Below, piece by piece: positions 20,484 to 39,654 of a stretch of DNA of 49,361 nucleotides. The notes under the pieces are model-generated. The model was given only the letters and a program-made list of their open reading frames with translations, did no database searches and was not told the origin of the DNA. Source of the DNA: an uncultured bacterium (GTDB lineage Bacteria; Patescibacteriota; Minisyncoccia; Moranbacterales; GWC2-37-73); assembly GCA_903851135.1 (NCBI GenBank), contig CAINNK010000035.1, forward strand, positions 1 through 49,361. The letters are read 5' to 3'. Numbering within the stretch: the first letter of the stretch is position 1; each line of letters begins with the position of its first letter. The translations under genes and the position numbers were made by a program.

Positions 20484-21410
20484 TCATTGAATATTGTTAG
20501 AAATTTTTTCAATCAATGACTCCAGATCTTCATGGGAATAATATTCAATCAAAATTTTTCCGCCGTCGCCGGATTTTGAAACTCTGACTTTAGTGCCAAG
20601 CAAATTGACCAGCTCATCTTCAACTCGTTTAAGCTCCGGATCAACACTGGTTGAGCGATGATATGATCGCACAGAAACTTCCTTAGTTTTGTCTTCTGCC
20701 TGCCTAACAGTTAAATTACTTTTCAAAATAAGCTCATAAAGTGCGCGCTGTTTTTCAGGATTGTCCAAGGATAAAATTGTTTTAGCGTGACCCTCAGTGA
20801 TTTTCCCATCAATAAGTCCCTTTTGAACTTCAATTGGCAAATTCAAAAGGCGCATTTTGTTGGCCACCAGACTTCGGCTCTTGCCCATTTTAGCAGCAAT
20901 TTCTTCCTGACTCATTTGATGCTGCTCAGCCAAAGTTTGATAAGCCCTGCCCTCCTCAATCGGATTCAGATCATGCCGTTGAATGTTTTCAATGATCGCC
21001 AACTCCAATTTTTCAAGTTCATTGACATCCTTGACAATCACGGGAACTTTTTTGAGTCCCGCCAGCTTGGCGGCTTGAAACCGGCGCTCACCAGCAATCA
21101 ACTCATATTGATTGCCATTTTTACTGACTACCAATGGTTGGATGATCCCATGATTCTTGATTGAATCGGCCAAATTTTGCAATTTTTCCTCATCAAAAAA
21201 ATGCCGCGGTTGATGAGGATTGGCCACGATATAGTTAACATCAACTTCAATGATATATTTGTCACCACGAATCGATTCTTCACTGGAAGTGGCTGTTGTT
21301 TTTTGCGCAAAAGAGTCCGAACTCTGTGTCGGTTCCGGAACACCTTGTTTGTTTGGAATAAGCGAAGACAATCCCCTGCCAAGTCCGAATTGTTGACTCA
21401 TATTTGTCAT
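20484..21410 (-). CDS. parB: Chromosome-partitioning protein ParB
   Basis: DNA-binding CTPase that spreads from parS sites. The ParB/Srx domain shows NPHQPRHFFDEEKLQNLADS, GIIQPLVV, YELIAGERRFQAAKLAG and KVPVIVKD; box II is NIQRHDLNPIEEGRAYQ, followed by the helix-turn-helix QEEIAAKMGKSRSLVANKMRLL and LIDGKITEGHAKTIL. The start is at the ATG at 21410 or at 21401 (MSQQFGLGRG); neither has a clear ribosome site, and the upstream region is an iterated-word array. parA lies upstream on the same strand. I saw no canonical parS (TGTTTCACGTGAAACA-like) in the window. Confidence 0.96.
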   Translation of the reverse strand: MTNMSQQFGLGRGLSSLIPNKQGVPEPTQSSDSFAQKTTATSSEESIRGDKYIIEVDVNYIVANPHQPRHFFDEEKLQNLADSIKNHGIIQPLVVSKNGNQYELIAGERRFQAAKLAGLKKVPVIVKDVNELEKLELAIIENIQRHDLNPIEEGRAYQTLAEQHQMSQEEIAAKMGKSRSLVANKMRLLNLPIEVQKGLIDGKITEGHAKTILSLDNPEKQRALYELILKSNLTVRQAEDKTKEVSVRSYHRSTSVDPELKRVEDELVNLLGTKVRVSKSGDGGKILIEYYSHEDLESLIEKISNNIQ

Positions 21411-21414
21411 ATTG

Positions 21415-21478
21415 CTAAATTGTTAAATTGTTATATTGTTTTTTACTAGCAATATATCAATATAGCAATATAGCCATT
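21415..21478. repeat. Iterated word array (TATTGTTA type), parA-parB gap
   Basis: ATTGCTAAATTGTTAAATTG on the left and AGCAATATATCAATATAGC on the right form an imperfect palindrome. Related words occur upstream of parA and upstream of atpE/F. Confidence 0.7.
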
Positions 21479-21496
21479 TAAGCTTAAATTTTTCAG

Positions 21497-22276
21497 TTAT
21501 TGCTTTGCTGCTGCTTCGTCCTTTGCGATAATTTCTCGGGCCAAGGATTTGTAGGAGCGAGCGCCCTTGGAAAGACTATCAAAACTCAAAATTGACTTGC
21601 CATAACTCGGGGCTTCCGCTAAACGCACACTGCGCGGAATCACGCTGTCAAAAACATAACCCGGAAAATGATTTCGCATTTCTTTGACCACTTGCCGAGA
21701 AAGACGATTGCGACGATCATACATCGTCAGGATTGCCCCCATAATCTTCAAATTTGGCTGTAAATGAGTTTGCACCAGTTGAATGGTCTGCAGCAATTGA
21801 CTGAGCCCTTCCAGGGCATAATATTCGGTCTGAACCGGAATCAGCACCTCATCGCTGGCAACCAATCCATTAATGGTCAACAATCCTAAACTTGGCGGAC
21901 TATCAATAATGATATAGTCATAATCGCTACGAACCTGACGCAAAACGTCATACAATTTAAATTCTCGATTGTCCAAATGCACCATTTCAACTCCCGCCCC
22001 AGCCAAGTCTTGCGAAGATGGCATCAAGTCATGCTTAGCGCCATCCAGCCGCATGATGACTTTACTAGGATGAAGACCACCAACCAAAGTGTGATACAAA
22101 CCTTGCTCAAGATTGCGAATATCAATTCCCAATCCAGACGAAGCATTACCTTGTGGATCCAAATCAACCAGGAGAACCCTTTTATTGGAATCAGCCAAAT
22201 AGGTTGCAAGATTGATAGCGGTTGTCGTTTTGCCAACGCCGCCTTTTTGATTTATCAGTGAGATTATTTTAGCCAT
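21497..22276 (-). CDS. parA: Chromosome-partitioning ATPase ParA/Soj
   Basis: Deviant Walker-type ATPase acting with ParB in chromosome segregation. Features are the P-loop SLINQKGGVGKTTTAINLA (with the signature lysine KGG), VLLVDLDPQGNASSGLG, the Walker B strand DYIIIDSPPSLGLL, and the helix IPVQTEYYALEGLSQLL. The late block PRSVRLAEAPSYGKSI is typical of Soj. Length 259 is standard. Both flanks are iterated-word arrays. Confidence 0.97.
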   Translation of the reverse strand: MAKIISLINQKGGVGKTTTAINLATYLADSNKRVLLVDLDPQGNASSGLGIDIRNLEQGLYHTLVGGLHPSKVIMRLDGAKHDLMPSSQDLAGAGVEMVHLDNREFKLYDVLRQVRSDYDYIIIDSPPSLGLLTINGLVASDEVLIPVQTEYYALEGLSQLLQTIQLVQTHLQPNLKIMGAILTMYDRRNRLSRQVVKEMRNHFPGYVFDSVIPRSVRLAEAPSYGKSILSFDSLSKGARSYKSLAREIIAKDEAAAKQ

Positions 22277-22587: not shown

Positions 22588-23580
22588 TTATTTTTTCTTG
22601 AATTTCACAATCTTCTTTCGATTTTTTGAAATTTGGCGAGTGACAGTGGTCTGGGCAATTTTGTTTTTTCTTTCTGCTCTGGCGTGACGCGAAATCTTGA
22701 AACTCTTTGCAACCAACAAAATCAAGAGCACCAATAACAACATCACAAAAAGAATTTTAATAAAGAAGGCAATCCATAGTTTGCTGCTAATATCTCGTTG
22801 AACTGTTGCCGCACTTCGATTATCATCAACAAAAGTCACCTTAATATAACCTTTATCTTGGACTGTCTGCGGATAATAAACCGGTGCAATGGCAATCGAT
22901 GGCATTGCGGCTGAAGTTGAAGTGGTTTCGCTGTTTGCAACTGATTTACTATCAACATTATTTGCATTTGCACTGTCAGAAGTTGCCTTCGGAGTTTCCA
23001 CTGGGGATCCCTGAGTTGCTGACATCGGATAAATAATATTATTTCTCAATTCAATTTTTTGAGTTGATTCTTGAAAAATTTTGGTTGCGAGCAATTTGAG
23101 CGCATCAAAAGTTTTTTCAAATTGTTGAGCTGGAACCTGCACCACAATAACACCTTTCTTAGGAGCACTTGAACCATAGGTTATATGAGTCGAATAAACG
23201 CTGCCTCCATTTTTTTCGGCAACAGTGATGACATTCTTTTGGGTCTGAATCACATCAGAAACCGCCAAAGAAAGTTCACCATTTTCAATGGCGTCGCCAG
23301 GAACATAAAATTGGTCAGCGTTTTCAATCGGAGAAATTGAAGTTGCATAGGCAGCGCCAGCGGCCCCCGAGGAAACACTTGCGCTATCACTGCCGACCAC
23401 CGCTGGAACGCTTGCGCGCAACTTTCGCTCGGAAAATTTAGCCGCAACAATAAGTCCTGCAAAAAGCAAACCAGCCAAAAGCAGAAAAAGCAAAATTGTT
23501 TTTTTTCTTTTGACGTGAATCACATCACTTTTTGTTTCAATCTTTTTTTCGCCTCTGGCGAGATTTTCTTTTGTGTTCAT
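22588..23580 (-). CDS. Membrane protein, DUF4349-like
   Basis: A 330-residue protein with one N-terminal membrane segment (ILLFLLLAGLLFAGLIVAA, ~30-48) and a second near the C-terminus (FFIKILFVMLLLVLLILLVA, ~278-297) followed by a basic tail. The extracellular part has the DUF4349 pattern: ENGELSLAVSDVIQTQKNVI, NGGSVYSTHITYG, GVIVVQVPAQQFEKTFDALK, then an I-x-L segment. A Ser/Ala/Thr-rich linker (SDSANANNVDSKSVANSETT) separates it from the last strand. The Cys or coiled-coil part of some DUF4349 members is absent. Function unknown; probably an envelope protein. Confidence 0.7.
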   Translation of the reverse strand: MNTKENLARGEKKIETKSDVIHVKRKKTILLFLLLAGLLFAGLIVAAKFSERKLRASVPAVVGSDSASVSSGAAGAAYATSISPIENADQFYVPGDAIENGELSLAVSDVIQTQKNVITVAEKNGGSVYSTHITYGSSAPKKGVIVVQVPAQQFEKTFDALKLLATKIFQESTQKIELRNNIIYPMSATQGSPVETPKATSDSANANNVDSKSVANSETTSTSAAMPSIAIAPVYYPQTVQDKGYIKVTFVDDNRSAATVQRDISSKLWIAFFIKILFVMLLLVLLILLVAKSFKISRHARAERKNKIAQTTVTRQISKNRKKIVKFKKK

Positions 23581-23644
23581 TTTATTGTTTTTAAAAAAGT
23601 TTTTTACCTACAAACATTATACCACTTTTTTGGAAAAGGAAAAA

Positions 23645-23669
23645 GGCACCACTATAAAATAGCGATGCC
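23645..23669 (-). terminator. Terminator of the CsoSCA-like gene
   Basis: Minus strand GGCATCGCTAT-ttt-ATAGTGGTGCC followed by TTTTTCC. The stem has two G-T pairs. Confidence 0.65.
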
Positions 23670-23695
23670 CCGACCTCATTAATTATAATAAGATC

Positions 23696-24844
23696 TCAAT
23701 TAACAAAAACAATTTGCTCTCCTGGACGCACCTCATCATATGCGACAGGCTCAAGAGGTTTAAATTCAAGAGTAACAGGATCCATATCAACCAAGGTAAG
23801 TTCTTTAGTTTCAATGTTGATAATGACCGATAACACCCTTAGTCTTTCATGAAAATCTGGTCGATGAGAATAGATATGCTTCAACGCGAAATGAGTCAAA
23901 TCTCTTGTTTGTTCAGTTGCAGCGGGAATTTTAGAAACATCCCTGTAAGGAGTACAGACAACCAAAAGACAACCATTTTTTACTCTTCCCATTTCTTCAT
24001 TCCTTGCTTGAATATCAACTGCTTGCAATATTTCTTTCAAGGAATTCAATGATGGGTTTATAATAATTCCACGATGAGGCGGAAACCATTGAAACATCTT
24101 ACCAAAACAAATGGCTATTTCATGATGATGGAGATGCACACTGATTTTGTCTTGAGTTTTTCTACATTTTTCAATGTGAGAAATGTTCCCCTTGATAAGT
24201 CTTAGTAAATATTTCTTAACATTTTGAGGAATAAATCTGCCCATCACTAATTGTATTTTCTCATAAATCACTGCATCTTGAAAGCCAATTAATTCAGAAC
24301 ATGAAATAAATCTTTCCGGTATTTCATCAAAAATTGTTAACTCCTCACTTGAAGTTTTAATGCCAACGACAATTGGGCAAACACCACCAGCAAAAACTCT
24401 GCGGATTTGATCACGTAATCTGAAGGCATTTTTCTTGGCTTTTTCCGTGTTGTTACGCCAACCAGCACAACATTTTTCTGGATCATCATCATAGTGAAAA
24501 GTAATAAAAAACAGTAAAGTTTTGTTAAGTTCTTTTGCATAGGCTACTGCTTCATTAAATTCTTTCTTAAAGGCTGACTCTCCATAATGAAAAATTCCGC
24601 CAATACTGCGATACGGGAAAACTTCACCTTCGAAACATTCTCCGCATTTAGCAAGATTAACTCGCCCATCACTACACATAGCACAATACACAAGAAGTGA
24701 ATAATTATCATAAACTTCTTGCACATTCCATGCATCATGAGCCACTGTTTCCACATACTCCTTACCAACCTTTAATAATTCTTCTAGTCTTTGTTGATTT
24801 TGCCAAGTCGACCAATGACGGCCTTTTTCCTTCAATTTAATCAT
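23696..24844 (-). CDS. CsoSCA-like beta-carbonic anhydrase
   Basis: A 382-residue soluble protein. It carries a beta-carbonic-anhydrase Cys-x-Asp-x-Arg box, MCSDGRVN (C57, D59, R61), followed by FPYRSIGGIF, and a second ligand region FHYDDDPEKCCAGW (H117, C125/C126). Layout and phrasing resemble the alpha-carboxysome enzyme CsoSCA (which has PCADGR, then a His and a Cys about ten residues apart, then an IGVDTDTD-like strand; here VGIKTSSEEL). Similarity continues with a helix KKYLLRLIKGNISHIEKC and GIIINPSLN. No shell protein or Rubisco gene is nearby. Own promoter at 24946-24974, ribosome site GGGAG and own terminator make it a stand-alone unit. Catalytic activity is inferred. Confidence 0.65.
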   Translation of the reverse strand: MIKLKEKGRHWSTWQNQQRLEELLKVGKEYVETVAHDAWNVQEVYDNYSLLVYCAMCSDGRVNLAKCGECFEGEVFPYRSIGGIFHYGESAFKKEFNEAVAYAKELNKTLLFFITFHYDDDPEKCCAGWRNNTEKAKKNAFRLRDQIRRVFAGGVCPIVVGIKTSSEELTIFDEIPERFISCSELIGFQDAVIYEKIQLVMGRFIPQNVKKYLLRLIKGNISHIEKCRKTQDKISVHLHHHEIAICFGKMFQWFPPHRGIIINPSLNSLKEILQAVDIQARNEEMGRVKNGCLLVVCTPYRDVSKIPAATEQTRDLTHFALKHIYSHRPDFHERLRVLSVIINIETKELTLVDMDPVTLEFKPLEPVAYDEVRPGEQIVFVN

Positions 24845-24945
24845 TGAAAACTCCCATGATTTTAAAACATTCTTAAATCCAGATAACTATTTTTTTATTT
24901 TTTAAATAAACCAAACATTGTCTATGTTTTCATACACAACTATAA

Positions 24946-25044: not shown

Positions 25045-25068
25045 CAAAAAACCCGCCGAGTGGCGAGT
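25045..25068 (-). terminator. Terminator of the complex I-like operon
   Basis: Minus strand ACTCGCC-actc-GGCGGGTTTTTTG, downstream of the NuoCD-like gene. Confidence 0.85.
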
Positions 25069-25100
25069 CTTTTTGAAGAAAAAGTGGATAACTCTTGATG

Positions 25101-25217: not shown

Positions 25218-26798
25218 TCAAAGGTCTGTTCCCGAGTAACTTAGATTCAAAGATTTATTAATAAGTGGGAAATCCGGCACAATGTTACCTGGTCCCATGA
25301 TGCCAAAAAGTGCCCAATTGCAAAAAGACGGATCGCGAGGAAAACATCTCTCAATCACTCCGTTTTTAATTTCCAGCGCGCACAAAATTTCTCCGCGCCA
25401 AGATTCAACCGCACCCAAAGCAAAACCATCCTTAATTTCAAAAGCAGTTTTAATTTCTCCCGCTGGAATATTTTTGACAATTTTTTCAATCAAGGCCAGC
25501 GAAGTTTTCAGCTCTTGAATTCTCACTAAATATCTTGAGTGGACGTCACCCTTGCTCTCTCTGGCAACTTCGATTGGATATTCCTTGTAAGCGCCGTGCG
25601 GATGATCTCGGCGAATGTCGCGATCAAGTCCGGAACCGCGCGCTGCGATGCCAAGGGCGCCAAAAGCCTTAGCTGCTTCCAAGGGCAGCACTCCCGTGGT
25701 TTGCAAGCGATCCAAAAATCCATCCGAAGCCAAGGCTTGAGCGACAATTTTTTGCATCTCATCGCAAGCATCTTTGGAAATCAAAAGAATTTTTTCCAAC
25801 TTATGATTATCAATATCAAATGAAACCCCACCAGGAATAACAAAACCTAGCCAAAAACGATTACCAAAAATGATACCGGAAAGTCGCATCATTCGCTCTT
25901 TGATGCGAAAACCATTAGCCGCAATGAAAGAATACCCAGTTCCCATCCCGCCAATATTAGCCAGGTCATGAATATGCATAGTGATTCTTTCCAGTTCGCA
26001 AACCAAGGTTCGCAAATGCTCGGCGCGCGATGAAACTTGGCAAGCCGCAATTTTTTCAGCCGCTTGCGCAAAAGCCAGGCCGTGCGCTGCAGCCATGTCG
26101 CCTGAAAGTCGCTCGCTAAATGGCAACGCTTGCTCAACCGTTTTTCCCTCCAACAATTTTTCCACCCCTTTGTGGGTGAAAAAAAGTTTTCCTTCCAGAG
26201 TCAAGATTCTTTCGCCAGCCACATTGAAACGAAAATGTCCCGGCTCAATGATTCCAGCATGAATCGGCCCAACCGGAATTTCAAAAATTCCTTCTCCTGC
26301 CACATGATGCATTGGATAAGGAACACTGGCTTTTTCAAGTTTTGCGTTCAGTGCAAAATCTTTCCGCAAAGGAAAAGTTCCCACTGGAATGTTTTCATGA
26401 TTGACTAAGCGTCTTGGATCCGGATGCCCTTTGGCAACCACGCCAAACATGTCTTGCAAGTAGCGTTCATACCAATGAGCAGCCATGACAGTTTTAGTGA
26501 TTGAGGGATATTGCGGATCACTAGCGGGAACTGAGGTTGAAAGTTTGAGCCATTGCTGCGCTGAGTCATTGCCAAAAATCACATGCACACCGAAAGTTTG
26601 ATTTTCCTTGCGATTGTCACTGCCAAAAAGCGATGACAGACTAAGCCCATATTCATTGACCAAAATCGTTGTCACATAGGCCAAGTTTTCCCGCTGGACC
26701 GAAGCGAAAACAGTGTCACCTTTTTGATCAATCACTTGAATCTGCGAAAAATTTTTGAGAATATCAATAATGTTCATAATTATATTTTTATAGTTCAT
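25218..26798 (-). CDS. NuoCD/HyfG-like large subunit lacking Ni-Fe cysteines
   Basis: Fused NuoC-like (1-150) and NuoD/hydrogenase-large-subunit-like (165-526) protein. The NuoC part ends with AAHWYERYLQDMFGV, GHPDPRRL and GTFPLRKDF; the large-subunit part shows VGPIHAGIIEPGHFRF, FFTHKGVEKLLEGKT and ELERITMHIHDLANIGG, all typical of group-4 hydrogenases. Where active enzymes have RVCGxC it reads R230-L-S-G-D-M235, and where they have DPCxxCTDR it ends N518-L-S-Y-S-G-T-D-L526. So no Ni-Fe ligand remains. It is the last gene of the operon. An internal ATG at 26777 is an alternative start. Known relatives without these cysteines are complex I NuoD and Ehr-type complexes. Confidence 0.9.
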   Translation of the reverse strand: MNYKNIIMNIIDILKNFSQIQVIDQKGDTVFASVQRENLAYVTTILVNEYGLSLSSLFGSDNRKENQTFGVHVIFGNDSAQQWLKLSTSVPASDPQYPSITKTVMAAHWYERYLQDMFGVVAKGHPDPRRLVNHENIPVGTFPLRKDFALNAKLEKASVPYPMHHVAGEGIFEIPVGPIHAGIIEPGHFRFNVAGERILTLEGKLFFTHKGVEKLLEGKTVEQALPFSERLSGDMAAAHGLAFAQAAEKIAACQVSSRAEHLRTLVCELERITMHIHDLANIGGMGTGYSFIAANGFRIKERMMRLSGIIFGNRFWLGFVIPGGVSFDIDNHKLEKILLISKDACDEMQKIVAQALASDGFLDRLQTTGVLPLEAAKAFGALGIAARGSGLDRDIRRDHPHGAYKEYPIEVARESKGDVHSRYLVRIQELKTSLALIEKIVKNIPAGEIKTAFEIKDGFALGAVESWRGEILCALEIKNGVIERCFPRDPSFCNWALFGIMGPGNIVPDFPLINKSLNLSYSGTDL

Positions 26799-26995: not shown

Positions 26996-28471
26996 TTACC
27001 TACTTATATAAATCGTATTTTTAGCAATTGAATCAATAAAAGCAAAGCCGTTGCTCGAAGAAAAAAAGAAAGTCAGACCCACAATTAAAACCAACTGCAA
27101 AGTCATAACCCAGTGCGTGACGTTCCATTTTTCTTTTTTAATCTCTGATTCATTTTCAGCTGAAGCAAAAAGCATATCAACAGTTGAGCGAAGCATTGCA
27201 TAAGCGATGACACTCAAAGCCAGAAAAACACAAAGGGCCAAAACCGGATGAAGCGCGAAAGCCGCTGTAAAGATCGTATACTCACTCACAAACAAAATTG
27301 AAGGTGGCAGCGCAACGATTGCTAGAATGCCAAGCATGAAAAGGACTGCTGTGTAAGGGGCTTTTTTGAGTAATCCCTTCACTTGCTGCGTTTGCGTAGT
27401 TTTATAGTTTATCAAAATTTCGCCAGCTCCAAAGAACAACATTGATTTTGTCAGAGTGTGCCCGATCATGTGAATGACGCTGGCCAGTGCTCCCAAAGGT
27501 GAAAGTGCCAGAGCAAAATTGATCAAGCCCATATGCTCAACACTGGAATAAGCCAACATACGTTTATAATTGTTCTGCACTAACATCATTAAGGCTGGCA
27601 CCACAATTGAAATGAAACCAAAAAATAGAAAAAGCCGCCCAGTCCAAGTGCTGCTGCCAAGTGCCAGGTCAGTGATAAACCGAAAACGAATAATACCATA
27701 AAGCGCAATGTTTAGCAGGATTCCAGAAAACAAACCGGAAATCGGTGAAGGCGCATTACTGTGAGCATCAGCCAACCAAATATGCATCGGAACAATTCCA
27801 AGCTTAGCCCCAAAACCAATAAACAAAAAGATGAAAGACCATTTCACAATGTCAGGCGAAATCAAGTGCGCATTTTTGAAAAGTGAAGTCAAGGTAAAAA
27901 TACCTTCGGTTTTTAGTCCGCCCACAGAAGAACCGTAACCAAAAAGTAAAATCCCCAACAAACCCAAACTAATGCCAGTTGAGCAAATGATGATATATTT
28001 CCAGGCTGCTTCAGCAGAAGTCTTTTTGCGATAAAGTCCAACCAAGAAAGTAGAAGAAAGCGTCGTGCCCTCCAGTGCCATCCACAAAAGCAACGTATTG
28101 TTAGCCAAAACAGTCAGCACCATACAAAGCGCAAACACATGAAACAACGCAAAATACAATTTCAAATCAGCCAAGGTGATGATTTTTTCGTCGTGTTCAT
28201 GCCAAATATATCGCACACTGACTAAGGCTGCCATCAAATAAACAAAAACTATTAAGGTGGCCATCAAAGCTGAAAAGCCATCCAAGAGCCAAATTGAATC
28301 GTGCCAACTTTCAGTCTGCTGAAAAAGCACCGGCAGTGAAATTGCAAAAACTGAAGCACTGCCCAACAACGCGAACACCCAAGTGCTCAATAAGATCTGT
28401 TTTTCTTTTTGCAGAAAAATTGCAAAACCGCTACCTGCCAGAATAAAAATGATTGTGATAATTGGAGTCAT
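26996..28471 (-). CDS. HyfF/NuoN-like antiporter subunit
   Basis: A 491-residue membrane protein with about 14 hydrophobic segments, of the complex I/Mrp antiporter family. Ion-path residues are kept: the Glu in LLLWMALEGTTLSS, the Lys in GFGAKLGIVPMHIWLADAHS, the YKRMLAYSSVEHMG segment, and the Lys of HMIGHTLTKSMLFFGAG. It thus looks able to move ions. By order and length it corresponds to HyfF (hydrogenase-4) or NuoN. Both flanks are copies of structured repeat B, so it sits in a repeat-bounded interval inside the operon. Confidence 0.92.
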   Translation of the reverse strand: MTPIITIIFILAGSGFAIFLQKEKQILLSTWVFALLGSASVFAISLPVLFQQTESWHDSIWLLDGFSALMATLIVFVYLMAALVSVRYIWHEHDEKIITLADLKLYFALFHVFALCMVLTVLANNTLLLWMALEGTTLSSTFLVGLYRKKTSAEAAWKYIIICSTGISLGLLGILLFGYGSSVGGLKTEGIFTLTSLFKNAHLISPDIVKWSFIFLFIGFGAKLGIVPMHIWLADAHSNAPSPISGLFSGILLNIALYGIIRFRFITDLALGSSTWTGRLFLFFGFISIVVPALMMLVQNNYKRMLAYSSVEHMGLINFALALSPLGALASVIHMIGHTLTKSMLFFGAGEILINYKTTQTQQVKGLLKKAPYTAVLFMLGILAIVALPPSILFVSEYTIFTAAFALHPVLALCVFLALSVIAYAMLRSTVDMLFASAENESEIKKEKWNVTHWVMTLQLVLIVGLTFFFSSSNGFAFIDSIAKNTIYISR

Positions 28472-28704: not shown

Positions 28705-30300
28705 TTATTCCGTCAAACTGCGCAATTCTTCCGTGTCAGTTGAACCATAAAACTCTCGAATTCTTGCCCCCAGAATCGACAAAATGAAAGCGCTCACCAC
28801 AATAATCACAAACACTCCCAGCTCAATCACTAGCGGCAAAGACTTAACCGTCACCAGCGTGAAAACCGTGACTCCATTTTCCATGGTGAGCAATCCCAAC
28901 ACTTGCGACAAGATGTTGCGATGCACAATCATTGTCGCCAGTCCAATACCAATAAGGGCAATTGAGACATACAGCAGCGTGTCAAATTCCACAATCCCCA
29001 CAATTGGCGTATGCTGCATAATGAAAAAGGTCACCCCAAGAATAGCCACGATTACAAAATAACTCGAGGCAGGTCTCAAAAAGGATGGCGCACTGATCAA
29101 ATCCTTGTGCTTTTTCTGAGCATATCTAATGACGTATGGCACCATGATAGCTTTAATTAAAATAGTCACAGCGGCGAAAATCCACAGATGCATTTTCTCT
29201 GTCTGAAAAAGAAAAGACAAACCAAGTGCAATGCCCGCAATTGAAAGCGAAGAAAGTGCGTAATAGCGCACCATGGCATAACTTCTGGCGCGACCAAAAA
29301 GCAACACCACAAAAAACACTGCCAGTGCTCCGAAAATTGTGTGCCAACCAATATTAACATTAAGAAAAGCTGAAAACAGCGCAATCAGCATGCCAGCCAA
29401 GGCCGTGAAAAAAGCAATCGACATATATTCTTGCAAGCGATAAAATCTCATCTTCACGATGGTTGATTCCAAAAGTGCCAACAACCCCATTGCAACCAAA
29501 ACTTTCAGGGTTCCCAAAATGATTGCGAAAATTACGCCCAAAAAACCAAGGCTCGCAACTGCCAAAACCGTGGTTGGGAAAATAAAGTTAGCCAGCAAAA
29601 TTGCAAAGACTGTCAATTTAATAGCACTGGCATATTCCAACATCGCCAAATATGGTCCGGAATATTCCAAAATCATCGCTTCATGCACCATCGTCAATTC
29701 CAAATGAGTGGCAGGATTATCAACTGGATAGCGAGCGTTCTCCGCCAAGGTGACCAAGAAAAAAGCAAAGACGGAAAGAATCAAATACGGATGAGCAATG
29801 ATCAATGATTGCCCCATCATTCCATCAATAGCAAAAGTGCCAGACACAAAACCCATCGCCACGAAAACCATAATCAGCGTCGGTTCAATCAGCGTGGCAA
29901 TCGTCATTTCACGACTAGAGCCCATGCCCCCGAAAGCACTGCCAGTATCCAGACCACCCAAGACCAAAAAAATCGAACCAATCATCAACACGCCAGCCAC
30001 AAACAGAAAATCACTCAAGCTGGCCAGCTTGCCGCCCACAAAAAGCAATGGCAAAACAAAAGCCAAAACCACTGAAGTTGAGAGCACCACAAATGGCACC
30101 ACCCGAAAAACCCAAGAAGTGACATCGGAAATTACCATTTCCTTTTTGAGCAAAGTTGCAAAAGTGTAGTATGGCAAAAATGGTGAAGCCCCCAAGCGCC
30201 CTTGCAAACGCGCCTTGCAAAACCTGACCGTTCCCATTGCCAATGGCGCCACCGCCAGAATAAAAATAGCTTGTAATAAAGTTGCTAGAATTGAAATCAT
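28705..30300 (-). CDS. HyfC (NuoH-like) fused to HyfE (NuoK-like) membrane subunit
   Basis: 531-residue fusion. Residues 1-~305 match HyfC/HycD/NuoH: LQGRLGASPFLPYYTFATLL, FGGMGSSREMTIATLIEP, and ARYPVDNPATHLELTMVHEA followed by MILEYSG, with the conserved acidic residues of the quinone/ion-path region. Residues ~315-531 look like HyfE: many helices and the late ENGVTVFTLVTVKSLPLVIE followed by LGVFVIIVVSAFILSIL. In Escherichia coli these are separate genes (hyfC, hyfE). The start ATG overlaps the HyfB-like stop by 4 bp, showing translational coupling. No hyfD equivalent lies between. Confidence 0.88.
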   Translation of the reverse strand: MISILATLLQAIFILAVAPLAMGTVRFCKARLQGRLGASPFLPYYTFATLLKKEMVISDVTSWVFRVVPFVVLSTSVVLAFVLPLLFVGGKLASLSDFLFVAGVLMIGSIFLVLGGLDTGSAFGGMGSSREMTIATLIEPTLIMVFVAMGFVSGTFAIDGMMGQSLIIAHPYLILSVFAFFLVTLAENARYPVDNPATHLELTMVHEAMILEYSGPYLAMLEYASAIKLTVFAILLANFIFPTTVLAVASLGFLGVIFAIILGTLKVLVAMGLLALLESTIVKMRFYRLQEYMSIAFFTALAGMLIALFSAFLNVNIGWHTIFGALAVFFVVLLFGRARSYAMVRYYALSSLSIAGIALGLSFLFQTEKMHLWIFAAVTILIKAIMVPYVIRYAQKKHKDLISAPSFLRPASSYFVIVAILGVTFFIMQHTPIVGIVEFDTLLYVSIALIGIGLATMIVHRNILSQVLGLLTMENGVTVFTLVTVKSLPLVIELGVFVIIVVSAFILSILGARIREFYGSTDTEELRSLTE

Positions 30301-32300
30301 AAAAATATAATTAAAGCGACAATTAAAGTTCCCAACACGAAAAGCAAATAAAATTGAATCCGACCGCCCTGAATCACTTTCACCCGCTCAGCAATAAACT
30401 TCAAAATAAAAATAATCGGCTGATACAACTTCTCTTTCCAAATTGAATCGAATGACAAAGAAAAAGCATAATTGCGAATCCACGGATTGGTTTCAATCAC
30501 TGGATGAGATTGCAACTTTTTGTTGCGCTTGATTAATTGCAAAAAGAAAAAACGAATCGGCGCAGAAAAAGCCGTGGCGCTATATTCCATCGTTTCATTG
30601 ATAGGCTGTCCACAATCCCAAGTTTGATATTTTCTTTCGGTAATATTTTTCTTGAAATAACCATATAGCAAAAAGATAATTGCTAACAAAACGGCCGGCA
30701 CCAGGAAAACTGCCGCGGAAGATAATTGACTGCCCACAAAATAATTTGCTTGAACGGAAAGACCAGTCAAAAAATTGACATTGAGATTCAAAAAGCCAAG
30801 TAGATTTTTGGCAAAAATTCCCAATCCGACTACAATCAACGCCAGCGCCATAATCGGCAAAATAAGTCGCAAATCTTTTTTCTCGTCGCGATTCTCGACA
30901 TGCTTGTTGCGAGCCAGTCCCAGCATAGAAATTCCGAAAACTTTCACCATTGCAAAAGTCGCCAAACCACTAATTAGTCCTATCAAAGAAAGCGTCCCGA
31001 CCATCACAATTGCCACCTGAGTTCCAAGAGTTGAATCATGCAGCAACATGACAATGTTCTGAATAAAACCCCATTCTCCATAAAAAGTCCCCAGCGGTGG
31101 CAATGGCAAGGAAGCCAAAATAGCTAGCAGAAAAGCAAAGGAAAAAATCGGCATCAGTTTAGCCAAGCCGCCCATAACTTCCAAGCTGCGACTATGGAAA
31201 CGATTAATTGCCACGCCGCTACTCAAGAAAAGTGCGGTTTTGAAGAACGCATGACTCACTGCATGAAAAATTGCAAACACTAAAATCAAATTGGCAATCT
31301 CAACTAGATTCGCATTACCGTTTTGAGCCAACAGATAAAGAGAAGTTCCCAGCATCGCAAAAATAATTCCAATATTTTCAATACTACTAAAAGCAAAAAT
31401 TCGTTTCATGTCTTTTTCAATCACCGCATTCAATGCTCCAATAAGGCCAGATAGTAATCCCAAAGCCAGTACCATCAGTCCTGCCCAACTTGGCAATCCA
31501 ACAAAAGCAAAAACAACTCGGATAAAACCATAGACTGCCACCTTAAGCATCAGACCAGACATCAAAGCTGAGACATTGCTTGGAGCCTCAGGATGCGCTT
31601 CCGGAAGCCACACATGAAATGGAACCAGTCCAGCCTTGCTGCCAAAACCAAACAAAAACAAAAGAAAAGTTGTGGCTTGCAAAGTTGGTGAAAGAAGCTG
31701 CCAAGCTCCAGTGAGATTTGAAAAATCGAAAAGCAGTGAACCATTACCCAAAATCAAAAATCCTCCCAAAATTGCCGAGGCTCCCAAATGCGTCATCACA
31801 AAATAAAAGAAAGCGGCTTTCAGGGATTGCTCTTGTCTATCTGCAAAAACCAAAAAGAAGGAGGAAATCGACATCACTTCCCACAAAAGCAAAAAAGAAA
31901 AAGTATTGTTAGCAAAAAGCACTCCCTGCATTCCAAAAACAAAAATCACAATCAAAAATTGTGTCAACGCCGGTTCATAGGTTTCCTTATACAGCTCCAG
32001 GTATCTGCAACCATAAACTCCAACTAGGCCGGCAACCAAACTAATAAGGGTAAAAAAGATAGCGGAAAGCAGATTTAGGCTTGGCGAGAATTGAAAAAAC
32101 CAATCCACTTTTGCCAGAAATATTTGTTTTGTGGCAAAATTAACCAAAAAAGAAACGCCAGCAATAAACCCAATCATATTTGAAAGTACAAAAAGTTGAA
32201 TTGATTTTTTCCAGTGATTGCCAAAAATTGCAAAGCCAGCTGAAAAAATCAGTCCCAAGAAATATGCAAACACTGCGTACGCTATGAAATTTATCGTCAT
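30297..32300 (-). CDS. HyfB/NuoL-like antiporter subunit
   Basis: A 667-residue membrane protein of the complex I/Mrp antiporter family. Conserved ion-path residues: Glu in LLLWEVMSISSFFLV, Lys in FGSKAGLVPFHVWLPEAHPE, and the EKDMKRIFAFSSIENIG and HAVSHAFFKTALFLSSG blocks. The C-terminal region (after ~residue 480) has additional helices and a loop containing KYQTWDCGQP, the (Y/K)xTWDCGQ-like motif typical of HyfB/HycC. This motif and length favour a hydrogenase-4-type rather than a NuoL-type subunit. The structured repeat A copy 2 lies just upstream. Confidence 0.93.
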   Translation of the reverse strand: MTINFIAYAVFAYFLGLIFSAGFAIFGNHWKKSIQLFVLSNMIGFIAGVSFLVNFATKQIFLAKVDWFFQFSPSLNLLSAIFFTLISLVAGLVGVYGCRYLELYKETYEPALTQFLIVIFVFGMQGVLFANNTFSFLLLWEVMSISSFFLVFADRQEQSLKAAFFYFVMTHLGASAILGGFLILGNGSLLFDFSNLTGAWQLLSPTLQATTFLLFLFGFGSKAGLVPFHVWLPEAHPEAPSNVSALMSGLMLKVAVYGFIRVVFAFVGLPSWAGLMVLALGLLSGLIGALNAVIEKDMKRIFAFSSIENIGIIFAMLGTSLYLLAQNGNANLVEIANLILVFAIFHAVSHAFFKTALFLSSGVAINRFHSRSLEVMGGLAKLMPIFSFAFLLAILASLPLPPLGTFYGEWGFIQNIVMLLHDSTLGTQVAIVMVGTLSLIGLISGLATFAMVKVFGISMLGLARNKHVENRDEKKDLRLILPIMALALIVVGLGIFAKNLLGFLNLNVNFLTGLSVQANYFVGSQLSSAAVFLVPAVLLAIIFLLYGYFKKNITERKYQTWDCGQPINETMEYSATAFSAPIRFFFLQLIKRNKKLQSHPVIETNPWIRNYAFSLSFDSIWKEKLYQPIIFILKFIAERVKVIQGGRIQFYLLFVLGTLIVALIIFL

Positions 32301-32497: not shown

Positions 32498-33034
32498 TTA
32501 AACTTTACTTTTTAAAGCATGCAAAACTCCACGCAAAATTTCCGTCGGAGTCGGCGGATCGCCAGGAATTTTGATATCAACCGGAATCACCTTTTCAACA
32601 CCGCCAACCACCGCATATGAATCTTTCCAAATGCCACCGTCACAAGCACCATCCCCAACCGCCACTACGATACATGGACGCGGAGCAGCTTCATAGGTTG
32701 TGCGCACCGCTGTTTCCAAATTGCGCGTCACTGGCCCAGTCACAAAAAGCATATCCGCATGCCGCGGAGATGCCACAAAAGAAAGACCGAAACGGTCAAT
32801 ATCATAATAAGCATTGTTTAGTGCTGTCAGTTCAATCTCTTCTGCATTGGTCGAGCCACCATCAACCGCCCGAATGCGCAATGACCTGCCACCATAAAGC
32901 TTTTTCACAATCAAAGCCACCTGCTCGCCCACTTCCTGAAAAGCGGCGTCTTCAGGGAAGTCTCTTAATTTTTTTTCATCTTCAGTAACTTTTGGACCAA
33001 AAAATAAGATTTTTAACAATTGAAGAGATTTCAT
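32498..33034 (-). CDS. NuoB/HyfI-like small subunit lacking the N2 cluster cysteines
   Basis: 178-residue homologue of the small subunit that holds the [4Fe-4S] N2 cluster. Strong family context: RIRAVDGGSTNAEEIELTAL, DIDRFGLSFVASPRHADML, LFVTGPVTRN, YEAAPRPCIVVAVGD, YAVVGGVEKVIPVDIKIPG. The four usual cysteines are replaced: GSCNGCE reads G60-S-T-N-A-E-E66, GDC reads GDG (G129), and PGCPP reads PGDPP (D159). Only one nearby Cys (C131, not a canonical ligand) and C121 remain. So the cluster is almost certainly absent. First gene of the operon, 175 bp after atpC on the same strand. Confidence 0.92.
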   Translation of the reverse strand: MKSLQLLKILFFGPKVTEDEKKLRDFPEDAAFQEVGEQVALIVKKLYGGRSLRIRAVDGGSTNAEEIELTALNNAYYDIDRFGLSFVASPRHADMLFVTGPVTRNLETAVRTTYEAAPRPCIVVAVGDGACDGGIWKDSYAVVGGVEKVIPVDIKIPGDPPTPTEILRGVLHALKSKV

Positions 33035-33124: not shown

Positions 33125-33240
33125 AGAGGGAGAGACAATATTTAACATTCAATAACCAACATCCAACAAAGCAAAATTCTTCATCTAATCTGCATGTTTG
33201 TATTTTTGATTATTGTATATTGTCTATTGTACGTTGTCTA
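33125..33240. repeat. Iterated word array (TTGTCTATTGTA type)
   Basis: ATTGTATATTGTCTATTGTA and GTTGTCTAC-type words. The right part overlaps the atpC 3' end, so the last residues of AtpC (RQRTIDNIQ) are coded by the words. Confidence 0.6.
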
Positions 33241-33650
33241 CTATGATGTTTTTTGGCAACGCGGATGCGGGCTGATTCTCTTTCGATAGCCGCCGCCACG
33301 CGAGCATATTCTTGCTCACTCATGGAGACTTTTTCATTCTTCAAATCTTGCGCTCTTTTGACTGCCTCCTCCGCTCTTTGCAAATCAATTTCTCCAACTG
33401 CTTCCGCTGTGTCAGCCAACACCACCAATTCATTGTTGTTAAATTCAATAAAGCCGCCTGAAGTTGCCATGGCAGTTTCTTTGTCATCAGCTTTAAACAT
33501 AATTTCGCCAGGTTTCAGGGATGCAATATAGCTACGATGACCAGGCAGAATGGTCACTTGCCCATCCGAAACCGGCAGTGTGATTTGCTCAATCTCCTGC
33601 TCAAAAAGAGTTTTTTCAGGAGTAACAATCTTAAACTTTATTTTTTGCAT
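33210..33650 (-). CDS. atpC: ATP synthase F1 subunit epsilon
   Basis: 146 residues from the ATG at 33650 (MQKIKFKIV). The N-terminal beta-sandwich shows VTPEKTLFEQEIEQITLPVS, GQVTILPGHRSYIASLKPGE and ELVVLADTAE; the C-terminal helical hairpin carries RAEEAVKRAQ and RVAAAIERESARIRVAKKH. An upstream in-frame start (33692) would be inside the ACAGAA-word array and is unlikely. The last ~9 residues are encoded by an iterated-word array. It is separated from atpD by a GxxExxY gene, an insertion in the otherwise canonical D-C order. Confidence 0.95.
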   Translation of the reverse strand: MQKIKFKIVTPEKTLFEQEIEQITLPVSDGQVTILPGHRSYIASLKPGEIMFKADDKETAMATSGGFIEFNNNELVVLADTAEAVGEIDLQRAEEAVKRAQDLKNEKVSMSEQEYARVAAAIERESARIRVAKKHHSRQRTIDNIQ

Positions 33651-33702
33651 AAACAGATAAACACAGAAATTAACAGAACGACACAGAAACACAGAAAAAT
33701 AC
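33651..33702. repeat. Iterated ACAGAA word array, left of GxxExxY gene
   Basis: AAACAGATAAACACAGAAAT plus AACAGAACGACACAGAAACA. Complementary (TTCTGTGT) words flank the other side at 34187-34300, so the gene lies between inverted arrays. Confidence 0.75.
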
Positions 33703-33704
33703 TG

Positions 33705-34133
33705 TTAATTTTTGGCGCTTAATAATAAATTTTTTTTATCGTTAGTGTAAATAATTCTTTTAAAATAAAGTGGCATCACACCAAAATTAATCAAATAACC
33801 AACTTCGTATTGCGTAGTCTTTATATATTCAGAAAGTTGAATCTCGTCACATTTGAAAACCACTGGCTTAGCTTTTAACTCAACCATGATTTTATTTTCA
33901 ACAAGAAAATCAGGCACATAATAACCTAGCTTATTACCAGTTTCCTTGGAAAAAACTTTTACCATAGGCTTTGACAGGTGAATAATATTTTCTTTTTCGA
34001 GCTTTTCTTTTAACACATTATGGTAAATACTTTCCCGGTGAAAATTTCCATATTCTTTTTGAATTTCCATACAAAGACCAACTATCTTATAACTCAATTC
34101 TTTATACAAAAATTCTTTCCCTGCGCTTTCCAT
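33705..34133 (-). CDS. GxxExxY family protein
   Basis: 142 residues matching the GxxExxY family: YKIVGLCMEIQKEYG, then HRESIYHNVLKEKLEKENII, the PD-(D/E)XK-like strand YYVPDFLVENKIMVELKAK with Asp and Glu-x-Lys, QLSEYIKTTQYEVGYLINFG and FKRIIY. The signature itself is slightly changed (YGNFHRESIY in place of GxGFLExxY). The family's role is unknown; the ELKAK motif suggests a nuclease fold. It is inserted between atpD and atpC and is bracketed by inverted ACAGAA-type arrays, one of three small orphan genes in this window with such brackets. Confidence 0.88.
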   Translation of the reverse strand: MESAGKEFLYKELSYKIVGLCMEIQKEYGNFHRESIYHNVLKEKLEKENIIHLSKPMVKVFSKETGNKLGYYVPDFLVENKIMVELKAKPVVFKCDEIQLSEYIKTTQYEVGYLINFGVMPLYFKRIIYTNDKKNLLLSAKN

Positions 34134-34186
34134 AAATTAATTTTATTTTTATTTTTTTATTACTCAAAACTTTTTCCACATCCTTA

Positions 34187-35773
<1,587 letters not shown>

Positions 35774-35819
35774 TTATTAATTTCTAATTAAAATTTTAGT
35801 TAAAAATACTTTCTATTTA

Positions 35820-35990
35820 AAGATACAAACACCAAGATACAATAACCAAACAAATTTCAAATTCCAATATCCAAAAATACAAAAGGTTTGAATGTTTGAG
35901 TTTTGATTATTGAATTTTGTTTGGTGCTTGTATCTTGTTTCTTGGTTATTTTGAAATTACCTTTATTTCTTGTATCTTGGTTATTCGTTT
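35820..35990. repeat. Iterated word palindrome upstream of atpD
   Basis: Left: AGATACAAACACCAAGATAC and AATAACCAAACAAATTTCAA; right: TTGTTTGGTGCTTGTATCTTG and TTTCTTGGTTATTTTG. The halves are inverted complements around a ~20-nt loop. Nothing else is visible in this part of the 400-bp gap. Confidence 0.8.
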
Positions 35991-36051
35991 CAAACTTCCT
36001 CCTCTATCCACGGCTTTTCTTAGCCATAAACAGAGCAAGAATTTCGAGGGA

Positions 36052-36080
36052 TTGACAAAATGGAGATTTGGGAGTATAAT
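36052..36080 (+). promoter_or_regulatory. Consensus sigma-70 promoter of cassette 2
   Basis: TTGACA (36052-36057), 17-bp spacer AAATGGAGATTTGGGAG, TATAAT (36075-36080). Both hexamers match the consensus exactly. Confidence 0.95.
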
Positions 36081-36168
36081 TTAAAGTTAGTGAAAGTTAT
36101 AGATTTTAGCAATTTTAATAAATTAATAATTTAATTTTATCTCAATAAAAATATCAGGAGAGATTACA

Positions 36169-36462
36169 ATGAAAAATTTCATTGTAAAAATTTGGGTAAA
36201 AATCATTTATCCATTATTTCACAGGGGCTGGTCAACTTGGGATGGATATGAATATTTCAAATATCTTCCTGAAAAAAGAAGAAGGCTATCCGTAATTCAA
36301 ACGTACGATGGTGGAAAAACAAAGTGGACCTCTACACTCATTGATCTAAAATCAAACAGGAATGTAGCGATCACAGAAAAAATGGAAGTTGAAATCATGA
36401 AACACCTCAAGATGCTTCCAAGGAAACTCCTCGAACGAATTGCCTACCTTACTATAAAATAG
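36169..36462 (+). CDS. Cassette-borne small protein, family X, copy 2 (97 aa)
   Basis: Unrecognised. Paralogue of the 93-residue protein at 13523-13804, sharing KIWVKIIYPLF, GWSTWDGYEYF and a C-terminal HLKMLPRKLLERI segment; the middle (RRRLSVIQTYDGGKTKWTST) differs. Basic, soluble, no signal peptide. Ribosome site TCAGGAGAGATT just before the ATG is strong, unlike the housekeeping genes here. It lies antisense to the ATP synthase genes with its own promoter and terminator. Confidence 0.88.
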   Translation: MKNFIVKIWVKIIYPLFHRGWSTWDGYEYFKYLPEKRRRLSVIQTYDGGKTKWTSTLIDLKSNRNVAITEKMEVEIMKHLKMLPRKLLERIAYLTIK

Positions 36463-36484
36463 CCAAAATTACATCGACTACTTA

Positions 36485-36522
36485 GCTACATCCATTCAGT
36501 ATCAGGATGTAGCTTTTTTATT
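36485..36522 (+). terminator. Terminator of cassette 2
   Basis: GCTACATCC-attcagtatca-GGATGTAGC followed by TTTTTTATTT. Confidence 0.9.
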
Positions 36523-36589
36523 TCCACATCCTCTACTTTTTCAATATCAAAATTTCAAATCTACTATCAGCATTTAATTTTTCAAAAGA

Positions 36590-36695
36590 ACAAACATCTG
36601 AACCACTGATTAGCACTTGATTTTTCTGATTACACTGATTTTTATTTTTTATCAGTGAGATCATTTTTATCATGGGTTAATCAGTGGTTCTGACA
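36590..36695. repeat. Iterated CACTGATTA word palindrome
   Basis: CTGAACCACTGATTAGCACT ... ATTACACTGATTTTTAT, then TATCAGTGAGATCA and GGTTAATCAGTGGTTCTGAC. The outer ends pair (GAACCACTGATTA / TAATCAGTGGTTC). Confidence 0.8.
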
Positions 36696-36717
36696 TTATC
36701 AAAAGCAACTTCATTTT

Positions 36718-36842
36718 CTTCCTCTCCCTCTGGGAGAGGATGTCAGGTACTCCTGACAGGTGAGGGCACGCTGCAAAATTCTGCTCCCCTCCCCTCATCC
36801 GCCCTACGGGCACCTTCTCCCACAGGGAGAAGGTGATATTGA
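36718..36842. repeat. GC-rich dispersed repeat next to atpG
   Basis: CCTCTCCCTCTGGGAGAGG, CAGGTACTCCTGACAGGTGA and CCTTCTCCCACAGGGAGAAGG: several hairpins of a type seen dispersed in many bacterial genomes. It stands out from the AT-rich surroundings and ends at the atpG stop. Confidence 0.75.
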
Positions 36843-36847
36843 ATGGA

Positions 36848-37876
36848 CTATTCTAGGGCTGCCCTTCCCGCACTTATCTCAGCGATTTCCTGGGTGATCT
36901 TTCCTTGCCTGATCTGATTGTATGCCAGGGTCAAATCTTCGGACATTTCCCCGGCAGCATCCGTAGCGCTTTTCATGGCCACCATGCGAGCGCTGTGTTC
37001 AGAAGCAGCTGATTCCAACACGCCATGGAAAAGTTGCATCTCAATCAGACGCGGAAAAATGAATTCCAAAACTTCCTGCGGACTTGGCTCAATCTTATAT
37101 TCAACTTTGGCCTCAGCCAATCCATATTCTTTGGCCACCACATCCATTTCGGCAATTTGTTTTTCAATGTCAATTTTTGAAATCGGCAAAATTTGACGAA
37201 TCCGAGTTTGCTGCGTCACGGCGCTGACATAGTCAGTATAAATCACCACAACTTTGTCATATTTTTTTGCCAAATACGCATCCATCACAATTTTTGAAAG
37301 CGGCTTGATATCATTGGCCACGGAAAAAGCAGCCCCGTCTGGAAAAGTAGCAATGATATCCCCGCCTGCAGCGCTATGTGCAGCATTGCGGGCAGGATTA
37401 CCCAATCTTCTAACTATCGCTTCACCTTTTTTCCCAATGGTAATAAAATCGATTTTTAGGTCGAGAGAATCCTTGGGGACTAAGTCCCCAATTGGGGACT
37501 TAGTCCCCAAGGATTCGATTTTCCTTACACCGATCCTATTAATTGTTAATTTTTCCGGGTTAGCAATTTCTTCTCTGATTTTTTTGGCAATTTGAGTGTT
37601 AAATGATCCACAAAGTCCCCTGTTTGAAGTCACCACAATCATTAGCACGTTTTTCACGGGCCTAATTTCCAAAAAACCATGCCCTGAAAATTCTTCGAAG
37701 GCTTTGGACAAATTTGTCAGCACGCTCCACGCTGCATGGGCATATGGTCTGATTGCCAACACACTCGCCACTGCTCGACGCATTTTGGCAGCCGAAACCA
37801 TCTCCATCGCTTTGGTGATTTTTTTGGTAGAGTTGATTGAACGTATTCTTCTTTTGATGTCTAGAGAGGATGCCAT
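36848..37876 (-). CDS. atpG: ATP synthase F1 subunit gamma
   Basis: Central rotor shaft, 342 residues against about 290 in most bacteria. The N-terminus ASSLDIKRRIRSINSTKKIT followed by KAMEMVSAAKMRRA and the C-terminus MKSATDAAGEMSEDLTLAYN followed by QIRQGKITQEIAEIS are textbook. SNRGLCGSFN is present. Extra length includes [12 protein letters not shown] (residues ~125-136), encoded by a 50-bp perfect palindrome, and GNPARNAAHSAAGGD (~157-171), encoded by a GC-rich imperfect palindrome. Both fall in the Rossmann-like globular part, not in the coiled-coil shaft, so rotation need not be affected. Confidence 0.96.
   Translation of the reverse strand: MASSLDIKRRIRSINSTKKITKAMEMVSAAKMRRAVASVLAIRPYAHAAWSVLTNLSKAFEEFSGHGFLEIRPVKNVLMIVVTSNRGLCGSFNTQIAKKIREEIANPEKLTINRIGVRKIESLGTKSPIGDLVPKDSLDLKIDFITIGKKGEAIVRRLGNPARNAAHSAAGGDIIATFPDGAAFSVANDIKPLSKIVMDAYLAKKYDKVVVIYTDYVSAVTQQTRIRQILPISKIDIEKQIAEMDVVAKEYGLAEAKVEYKIEPSPQEVLEFIFPRLIEMQLFHGVLESAASEHSARMVAMKSATDAAGEMSEDLTLAYNQIRQGKITQEIAEISAGRAALE
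37360..37396. repeat. GC-rich imperfect palindrome inside atpG
   Basis: CCCCGCCTGCAGCGC and the partly complementary GCATTGCGGGCAGG. It encodes NPARNAAHSAAGGD, which looks foreign to the family. The GGCGGGCAGG motif also occurs near 13957. Confidence 0.55.
37467..37516. repeat. 50-bp perfect palindrome inside atpG
   Basis: Centred at 37491/37492, self-complementary from GAATCCTTGGGGACTAAG to its mirror CTTAGTCCCCAAGGATTC. The inner 32 bp are identical to the palindrome in atpD and give the same peptide [12 protein letters not shown] in frame. Confidence 0.97.
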
Positions 37877-37879
37877 ATA

Positions 37880-37985
37880 TATTTACAGATTTACACGAAT
37901 TTATTACTGATTCTCACGGATCACGGATTTATTATTAAGAATCATCCGTGATTAGTGTTTATCCGTCAATCATCCGTGTTCATCA
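37880..37985. repeat. Iterated CACGGAT/ATCCGTG word palindrome
   Basis: GATTCTCACGGATCACGGAT on the left and ATCATCCGTGATTAGTG, TTTATCCGTCAATCATCCGT on the right. Fills the atpA-atpG gap. Confidence 0.75.
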
Positions 37986-38017
37986 GTTTGAAATTACCTT
38001 AAGCAAACAAAACAAAC

Positions 38018-39520: not shown

Positions 39521-39547
39521 AATGTTTATTTAAGTTTAGTTAAATTT

Positions 39548-39650
39548 ATTTGAGATCTCTACGAATTACGAACTTTTACGAATGTACGAATGCCCCACAA
39601 ATATACAAATTTGCTACTCGCCTACCGTCGAGGCAGGCAAATCTACAAAT
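39548..39650. repeat. Iterated words upstream of atpA (two word types)
   Basis: TCTACGAATTACGAACTTTT and ACGAATGTACGAATG (as at 25101), followed by CACAAATATACAAATTTGC and CAAATCTACAAATG (as at 15383). A GC-rich hairpin GCCTACCGTCGAGGCAGGC splits the second array. Confidence 0.7.
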
Positions 39651-39654
39651 GAAT

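Follow-up and report, generated by a model that had tools for sequence, protein, structure and literature searches.

Carboxysome-free homologs of the carboxysomal carbonic anhydrase (CA) CsoSCA were reported in 2022 under the name CsoSCA2, their active sites being intact and the N-terminus short, and the holders listed are Ca. Moranbacteria (nine genomes), Falkowbacteria, Magasanikbacteria and Uhrbacteria; the text of that paper nowhere mentions hydrogenase, NuoL, SulP or ATP synthase (PMC9164163). A CsoSCA without a carboxysome, such as an earlier note proposed for the DNA studied here, is already known and is not new as such. Carbonic anhydrases have also been described together with proton-channel proteins. 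Specifically, in DAB2 the beta-CA-like DabA2 sits on the NuoL-like DabB2 (PMC13144422), and the cyanobacterial, redox-driven NDH-1MS carries a Zn carbonic anhydrase module (PMC6981117). In addition, a hyf cluster adjoining a beta-type CA gene was reported in 2013 on a genomic island of Acidithiobacillus caldus (hyfBCEFG-car), where CO2/pH homeostasis via H2 evolution by an H2-evolving hydrogenase was proposed (PMC3826726).

The locus analysed here lies in a 1.28 Mb genome of the order of Ca. Moranbacteria (46 contigs, completeness estimate 100%); by the window we mean the whole stretch of 49,361 nucleotides that was analysed. As the earlier note had it, the window contains a real open reading frame at 23696-24844 on the minus strand, encoding a 382-aa protein with CSDGR at residues 57-61, H117 and C125-C126. 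Upstream of this gene, on the same strand, lies the ATP synthase operon and then a Hyf-like operon (HyfI, HyfB, HyfC+E, HyfF, HyfG), and downstream of it are DUF4349 and then parA-parB. The features of the locus are the following:

20484..22276, minus strand: parA-parB, downstream anchor of the slot
22588..23580, minus strand: DUF4349 membrane protein gene, downstream flank of the slot
23643..23671, minus strand: terminator hairpin of the CA gene, 13 bp plus T-run (hairpin search, folding)
23650..24932, no strand: swapped segment, absent from sister G003, which has Pro_CA_2 there instead; flanking DNA aligns at 80-92%
23696..24844, minus strand: CsoSCA2-like carbonic anhydrase gene, 382 aa; catalytic domain ~45-185, then a ligand-less second half
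24125..24127, minus strand: H240 codon, H-x-E motif of the second half; H invariant in 99/99 homologs, carboxysomal CsoSCA included
24329..24358, minus strand: lineage-specific departures K163, S165, F172 (family alignment; nearly all homologs have E/D, D, H)
24467..24469, minus strand: codon of Zn ligand C126 (99/99 homologs)
24494..24496, minus strand: codon of Zn ligand H117 (99/99 homologs)
24662..24676, minus strand: codons of CSDGR 57-61 (Zn ligand C57, D59/R61 dyad), invariant in 99/99 homologs
25046..25073, minus strand: hairpin terminator separating the Hyf-like operon from the CA gene, 12 bp, -16.0 kcal/mol
25218..26798, minus strand: HyfG/NuoCD-like large subunit without any of the four [NiFe] cysteines (HycE CGIC to SGDM; CYSC to SYSG)
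26996..28471, minus strand: HyfF-like proton-channel subunit; conserved E134, K223, H230, K303, H334, H338, K342
28705..30300, minus strand: HyfC+HyfE-like fused membrane subunit
30297..32300, minus strand: HyfB-like proton-channel subunit; conserved E141, K222, H229, K253, K299, H346, H350, K354
32498..33034, minus strand: HyfI/NuoB-like small subunit, Fe-S cysteines lost (CNGCE to TNAEE; GCPP to GDPP)
33210..43419, minus strand: F1Fo ATP synthase operon (epsilon 33210, beta 34259, gamma 36848, alpha 38018, delta 40590, b 41461, a 42562)

Taken alone, the window protein stayed below threshold for every family in the Pfam, NCBIfam and PDB searches and gave hints only, namely Pro_CA (PF00484; E=0.007, 17.1 bits, cutoff 25.7) and TIGR02701 (E=0.07, over the C-terminal half), with no match to PF20686 or CsoSCA_C (PF08936); a contig search with it as single query returned zero relatives. 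In the order, phmmer found homologs in 17 genomes besides that of the window (E down to 1e-33, ~25% identity), and among the aligned family members CsoSCA_cat PF20686 is matched by 18/19 and TIGR02701 by 19/19. The family profile matched CsoSCA 2fgy in the PDB at E=1.2e-10, ordinary beta-CA at only 1e-3, and retrieved the carboxysomal CsoSCA of Thiobacillus at 4e-15. The AlphaFold model of the window protein (pLDDT 80, pTM 0.81) gave CsoSCA 8thm, 2fgy and 9g4t as best fold matches, over its full length (E 1e-12 to 6e-12, ~380 columns aligned), followed by the tandem beta-CA 1ddz. The earlier note had named a profile search and a predicted structure as checks of a CsoSCA-like identity: the predicted fold bore it out, and the profile search did so for the family but not for the single sequence, whose insignificant scores against CsoSCA and beta-CA profiles the note had listed as speaking against it. 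Because homologs and fold, and not the single-sequence score, make the link to CsoSCA, we regard the window protein, on alignments and a predicted model, as a CsoSCA-fold protein of very divergent sequence, its membership running through a chain of homology.

Specifically, C57, D59, R61, H117, C126, N220 and H240 are invariant in 99 aligned homologs, carboxysomal CsoSCA included. The zinc-site residues proposed earlier stand with the exception of C125: since C126 is invariant and position 125 is Gly in 95 of the 99 homologs, C126 is the ligand and C125 is not. The H-C spacing had been called CsoSCA-like, and rightly so, being X8 in the window protein (H117-X8-C126), X9 in the Moranbacteria family and X10 in the Thiobacillus carboxysomal CsoSCA (L113), nearer to CsoSCA than to the H-X2-C of ordinary beta-CA. 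Neither H-X2-C nor a PF00484 score above cutoff, the marks of a classical beta-CA, was found in the window protein. The RuBisCO-binding N-terminal domain is absent, only ~48 residues standing ahead of the first core strand (E50-57).

On these residues and the modelled fold, the window protein very likely has carbonic anhydrase activity. An altered or lost activity is possible because the protein departs from its homologs at near-invariant positions (K163, S165, F172 and D119, where nearly all others have E/D, D, H and S), has an H-C loop one residue shorter and lacks a significant single-sequence match. The K163/S165/F172 substitutions and the shortened loop, together with the long branch described below, would also suit a non-catalytic or repurposed CsoSCA descendant acting on another substrate or as a scaffold or regulator. 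We consider such a descendant decidedly improbable, as all five catalytic residues are kept at ~25% identity and two other CA families substitute for the enzyme in sister genomes, which indicates CA as the common function.

A profile scan with subset A2 of the family alignment found 407 encoded relatives, and those among the matches listed belong to Pseudomonadota, Nitrospirota, Desulfuromonadales, Myxococcales and Patescibacteria; a plasmid search found no CsoSCA2 homologs on plasmids. The free-standing branch of the CsoSCA family predicted from the sequence was supported: the window has no RuBisCO or shell gene, and BMC shell (PF00936) and RuBisCO (PF00016) profiles had 0 matches in the whole genome, even at E<=1. 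In the trees, the window copy falls outside the clade of the other copies from its own taxonomic family. As judged from its sequence it is a long-branch xenolog and not the lineage's own copy, so that the epithet 'ancestral' is not borne out. A tandem CsoSCA2 pair occurs in G114 (L127:5571-7795), its second copy having CSDPR in place of CSDGR. This second copy groups with the window protein with a support of 98/93; the program warned of long branches, and the grouping may be due to long-branch attraction.

As regards transcription signals, the terminator assigned to the gene was found, as a 13-bp hairpin and T-run at 23671-23643. Its supposed own promoter was not recovered by a sigma-70 scan, which remained at chance level (6 found, 6.5 expected), although the upstream stretch 24933-25096 is conserved in genus mates. 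Because the terminator at 25046-25073 separates the CA gene from the Hyf operon, the CA gene of the window is probably transcribed alone, and its inclusion in the Hyf-like operon was rejected. As a separate observation, a GxxExxY (PD-(D/E)XK-like) gene lies at 33705-34133, on the same strand, between the genes for ATP synthase subunits beta and epsilon, and ORFs resembling it are present in or near the atp/par locus of G039 (L251:4341-4781) and G017 (L237:10738-11232).

The large subunit of the neighbouring complex has HycE of formate hydrogenlyase as best PDB match (5e-68), with SGDM for CGIC and LSYSG for PCYSC. The NiFe cysteines are absent from the large subunit in 28/28 aligned sequences, one of them ending before the second motif, and the two CxxC motifs by which [NiFe] hydrogenases of group 4/FHL are recognised were not found in the neighbouring operon. 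In the small subunit HyfI of the order, the cysteines of CNGC and GCPP are gone as well, whereas the proteobacterial relatives, in which the NiFe ligands are also missing, keep the Fe-S cysteines. The proton-channel residues of HyfB and HyfF are invariant (26-27 sequences). Since the NiFe and Fe-S ligands are all gone, an electron-driven role is hard to see. A CA acting as partner of formate hydrogenlyase and disposing of formate-derived CO2 was rejected as first choice, given a large subunit without a NiFe site. On plasmids of Variovorax, Burkholderia, Rhizobium and Methylocalor (L256-L259), HyfBCEFGI genes are annotated as hydrogenase 4 and one gene as nickel-dependent hydrogenase large subunit; there, the C-terminal NiFe motif is missing, as is the N-terminal one where matched. 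No CA was seen alongside the Hyf/Ehr clusters on the inspected proteobacterial plasmids.

We then define as the slot the site downstream of HyfG and ahead of parA-parB, the window genome being G000. The survey covered MAGs, with one representative genome per species; the slots of G002, G005, G085, G130 and G123 are broken by contig ends, and the loci of G006, G007 and G013 lay outside the reading. The slot holds CsoSCA2 in G000, G004, G015 and G018, Pro_CA_2 in G001, G003, G014, G022 and G088, and gamma-CA in G005 (gene split by the contig end), G009, G016 and G127. In the genera g1 and g5, all ten readable genomes have a CA-family gene of one of these three families in the slot, and g5 alone contains gamma-CA (G009, G016), Pro_CA_2 (G014) and CsoSCA2 (G015, G018). 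DabA (UPF0753/PF10070) was not among the slot proteins, whose profile matches are CsoSCA, Pro_CA_2 or gamma-CA. The best matches of the gamma-CA proteins, in which the H-x4-H histidines are retained, are CcmM (4e-36) and Methanosarcina Cam (1e-32). For Pro_CA_2, C-x-(D/E)-x-R and H-x2-C are present in 8/8 aligned proteins, and modelling gives a beta-CA fold of two halves in which the second is the active one, a mirror of CsoSCA. That the CsoSCA2 genes in the slots of the window and of G004 are fast-diverging orthologs was rejected, the two proteins being 23% identical against 89% for the neighbour and separately placed in the tree.

The exchange is clearly evident from the comparison with sister G003, whose slot contains a 317-aa Pro_CA_2 (PF20393, E=5e-13) that BLASTP did not match significantly to the window protein, between flanks nearly identical in the two genomes (protein identity 99% for HyfG, 98% for ParA and 99% for ParB). 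The DNA homology between G000 and G003 ends at 24933 and restarts at 23649; therefore, the enzyme gene alone has been exchanged. A 128-bp stretch over the CA terminator and the DUF4349 start (23543-23669) is 95% identical to G001 in surroundings of ~75%, and could be a recombination anchor for cassette exchange. Near-identical flanks permitting such exchange, and a CA gene with its own terminator, would be expected if the enzyme were an ordinary housekeeping CA and the atp-par interval a recombination-prone cargo site, its content selected independently of the complex. Random cargo, however, is not what the ten readable slots contain, and the wider distribution of the genes bears on this explanation as well.

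CsoSCA2 lies between atpC and HyfI in G085 and G117, and directly before HyfI in G127 and G022, both of which have a second CA after HyfG. Where the Hyf complex is absent, a short Pro_CA_2 comes after atpC, and in 27/27 Pro_CA_2 genomes of the order this gene lies at the atp/Hyf/SulP locus, either immediately or with one gene intervening. A SulP+STAS transporter, whose PDB matches include BicA 6ki1 at 1.5e-25, is found at the Hyf position in G012 (beside CsoSCA2) and G017 (beside Pro_CA_2). The arrangement atpC-CsoSCA2 also occurs in G438 (L129), from the same phylum but outside the order. Nine of the 18 CsoSCA2 copies of the order do not adjoin the atp/Hyf locus; an adjacent CA gene is missing from 4/18 close-type Hyf operons and present in 2/9 of the distant type. 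The presence of Pro_CA_2 after atpC even without the Hyf complex, and of half of the CsoSCA2 copies elsewhere, would fit the cargo site, but the exact replacement of the Hyf complex by SulP and the linkage outside the order argue against it, and we hold this explanation to be doubtful. Outside Patescibacteria, NuoL/Hyf-type or SulP genes are within 5 kb of 16/64 CsoSCA2 loci; these neighbourhoods are weaker evidence, because the Hyf/NuoL-type neighbours are convergent where inspected.

By a rough estimate (~1000 genes per genome), an acquired gene falls within ~10 genes of the locus with a chance of ~1% per acquisition. At least five acquisitions were counted (Pro_CA_2, gamma-CA and three CsoSCA2 arrangements), and for this reason a chance origin of the linkage is very unlikely, shared descent making the exact number uncertain.

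Two further observations were made on related loci. In family f10, the ORFs of ~200 aa that precede HyfI, at first candidates for beta-CAs, are VTT-domain proteins; a membrane protein of this kind is repeatedly found immediately upstream of the Hyf-like operon of the distant type (f10; L211, L215, L216, L217), and no carbonic anhydrase is adjacent at these f10 loci. The contig of L034 (DYDB01000006.1), as also L119/L208, is titled 'Micavibrio sp.' but shows synteny with the atp-Hyf loci of Moranbacteria, and this title is probably wrong.

The invariant NuoL-type channel residues in a complex that has lost all NiFe and Fe-S ligands, the recurring CA neighbour, the SulP at the equivalent position and the published analogues DAB2 (PMC13144422) and NDH-1MS (PMC6981117) might be read, by analogy, as a vectorial CA driven by the proton motive force (PMF), in which the slot enzyme would dock on the Hyf-like complex and proton flow through HyfB/HyfF would drive one-way CO2 hydration. 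A specific docking interface is hard to reconcile with three unrelated CA families in the slot; the same families are found without the Hyf complex, and the CA proteins showed no identifiable transmembrane or docking segment. We therefore consider a vectorial CA of this kind unlikely.

All together, these data make it probable that the window enzyme is the CA of a modular inorganic-carbon/proton unit, one of several interchangeable CAs in a fixed slot. The enzyme would be a cytosolic zinc CA of the CsoSCA2 kind (CO2 + H2O <-> HCO3- + H+), a duplicated beta-CA whose first half would be active and whose second half lacks the ligands. The unit would consist of the ATP synthase operon, followed by the redox-dead proton-channel Hyf-like complex or a SulP anion transporter, plus the CA, and the partner most likely moves bicarbonate, CO2 or associated protons. 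On balance, a functional coupling of the CA to its neighbours as an inorganic-carbon/proton module also seems likely: the transport complex would move or energise the inorganic carbon or protons that the enzyme releases or consumes, and in a small fermenting cell the purpose may be to supply carboxylations with bicarbonate and/or to manage pH/PMF. The link to bicarbonate/proton balance that had been guessed from the gene is in this way supported by the locus context, to a greater degree than could have been known to its reader. Only tentatively do we suggest a PMF-linked unit joined to the ATP synthase operon, in which a complex-I/Hyf-like assembly free of redox sites has been turned into an ion-driven CO2/bicarbonate machine, exchangeable for SulP and with its CA swapped among three families.

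No report of class swapping, ATP-synthase linkage or SulP replacement was found in the literature searched (subscription papers and preprints being outside its scope). For organisms that can hardly be cultivated, the replacement of one CA class by another, as a single gene at a constant position, provides strong evidence on function, and it offers a shared, testable role for the puzzling NiFe-less Hyf/Ehr complexes and for the unstudied CsoSCA2 enzymes. The locus pattern points to a mode of CO2, bicarbonate and proton handling that has gone unrecognised.

Compared to the known systems, the window copy has in common with CsoSCA2 (PMC9164163) the fold, the active-site residues, the short N-terminus, the carboxysome-free state and a Moranbacteria host, but it is only ~25% identical to any of them, its E/D-T-D...H positions are broken and it lies outside the clade of its own family. 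Carboxysomal CsoSCA (2FGY, 8THM, 9G4T) is likewise a duplicated beta-CA, active in its first half and ligand-less in its second, and has C-x-D-x-R and a long H-C spacing; the window protein differs in lacking the RuBisCO-binding domain and a carboxysome, with 17% identity to the Thiobacillus sequence. The Hyf gene order and the NiFe-less state are shared with Ehr/hydrogenase-4-like complexes (PMC6349859). The Moranbacteria complex, additionally without the Fe-S cysteines in HyfI, appears from its genes to resemble them and to have gone one step further.

The A. caldus hyfBCEFG-car island, like the Moranbacteria locus, has hyf genes beside a CA and a proposed CO2/pH role, but it is a single case, and neither class swapping nor SulP replacement is described there (PMC3826726); if its hyf cluster were also NiFe-less, the H2 part of that proposal would fail and the CO2/pH part would stand. 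Finally, DabA-DabB/MpsAB (DAC, DAB2) shares the theme of a CA-like protein and a NuoL-family proton channel, and accumulates inorganic carbon. In contrast, the Moranbacteria CAs are of other families, and their putative membrane partner is a whole Hyf-like arm with a redox-dead soluble arm. Should the redox-dead complex indeed handle inorganic carbon, it would add to NDH-1MS and DabAB a third architecture in which complex-I-type proton channels are joined with a carbonic anhydrase, and this one would be found in non-autotrophic bacteria with reduced genomes.
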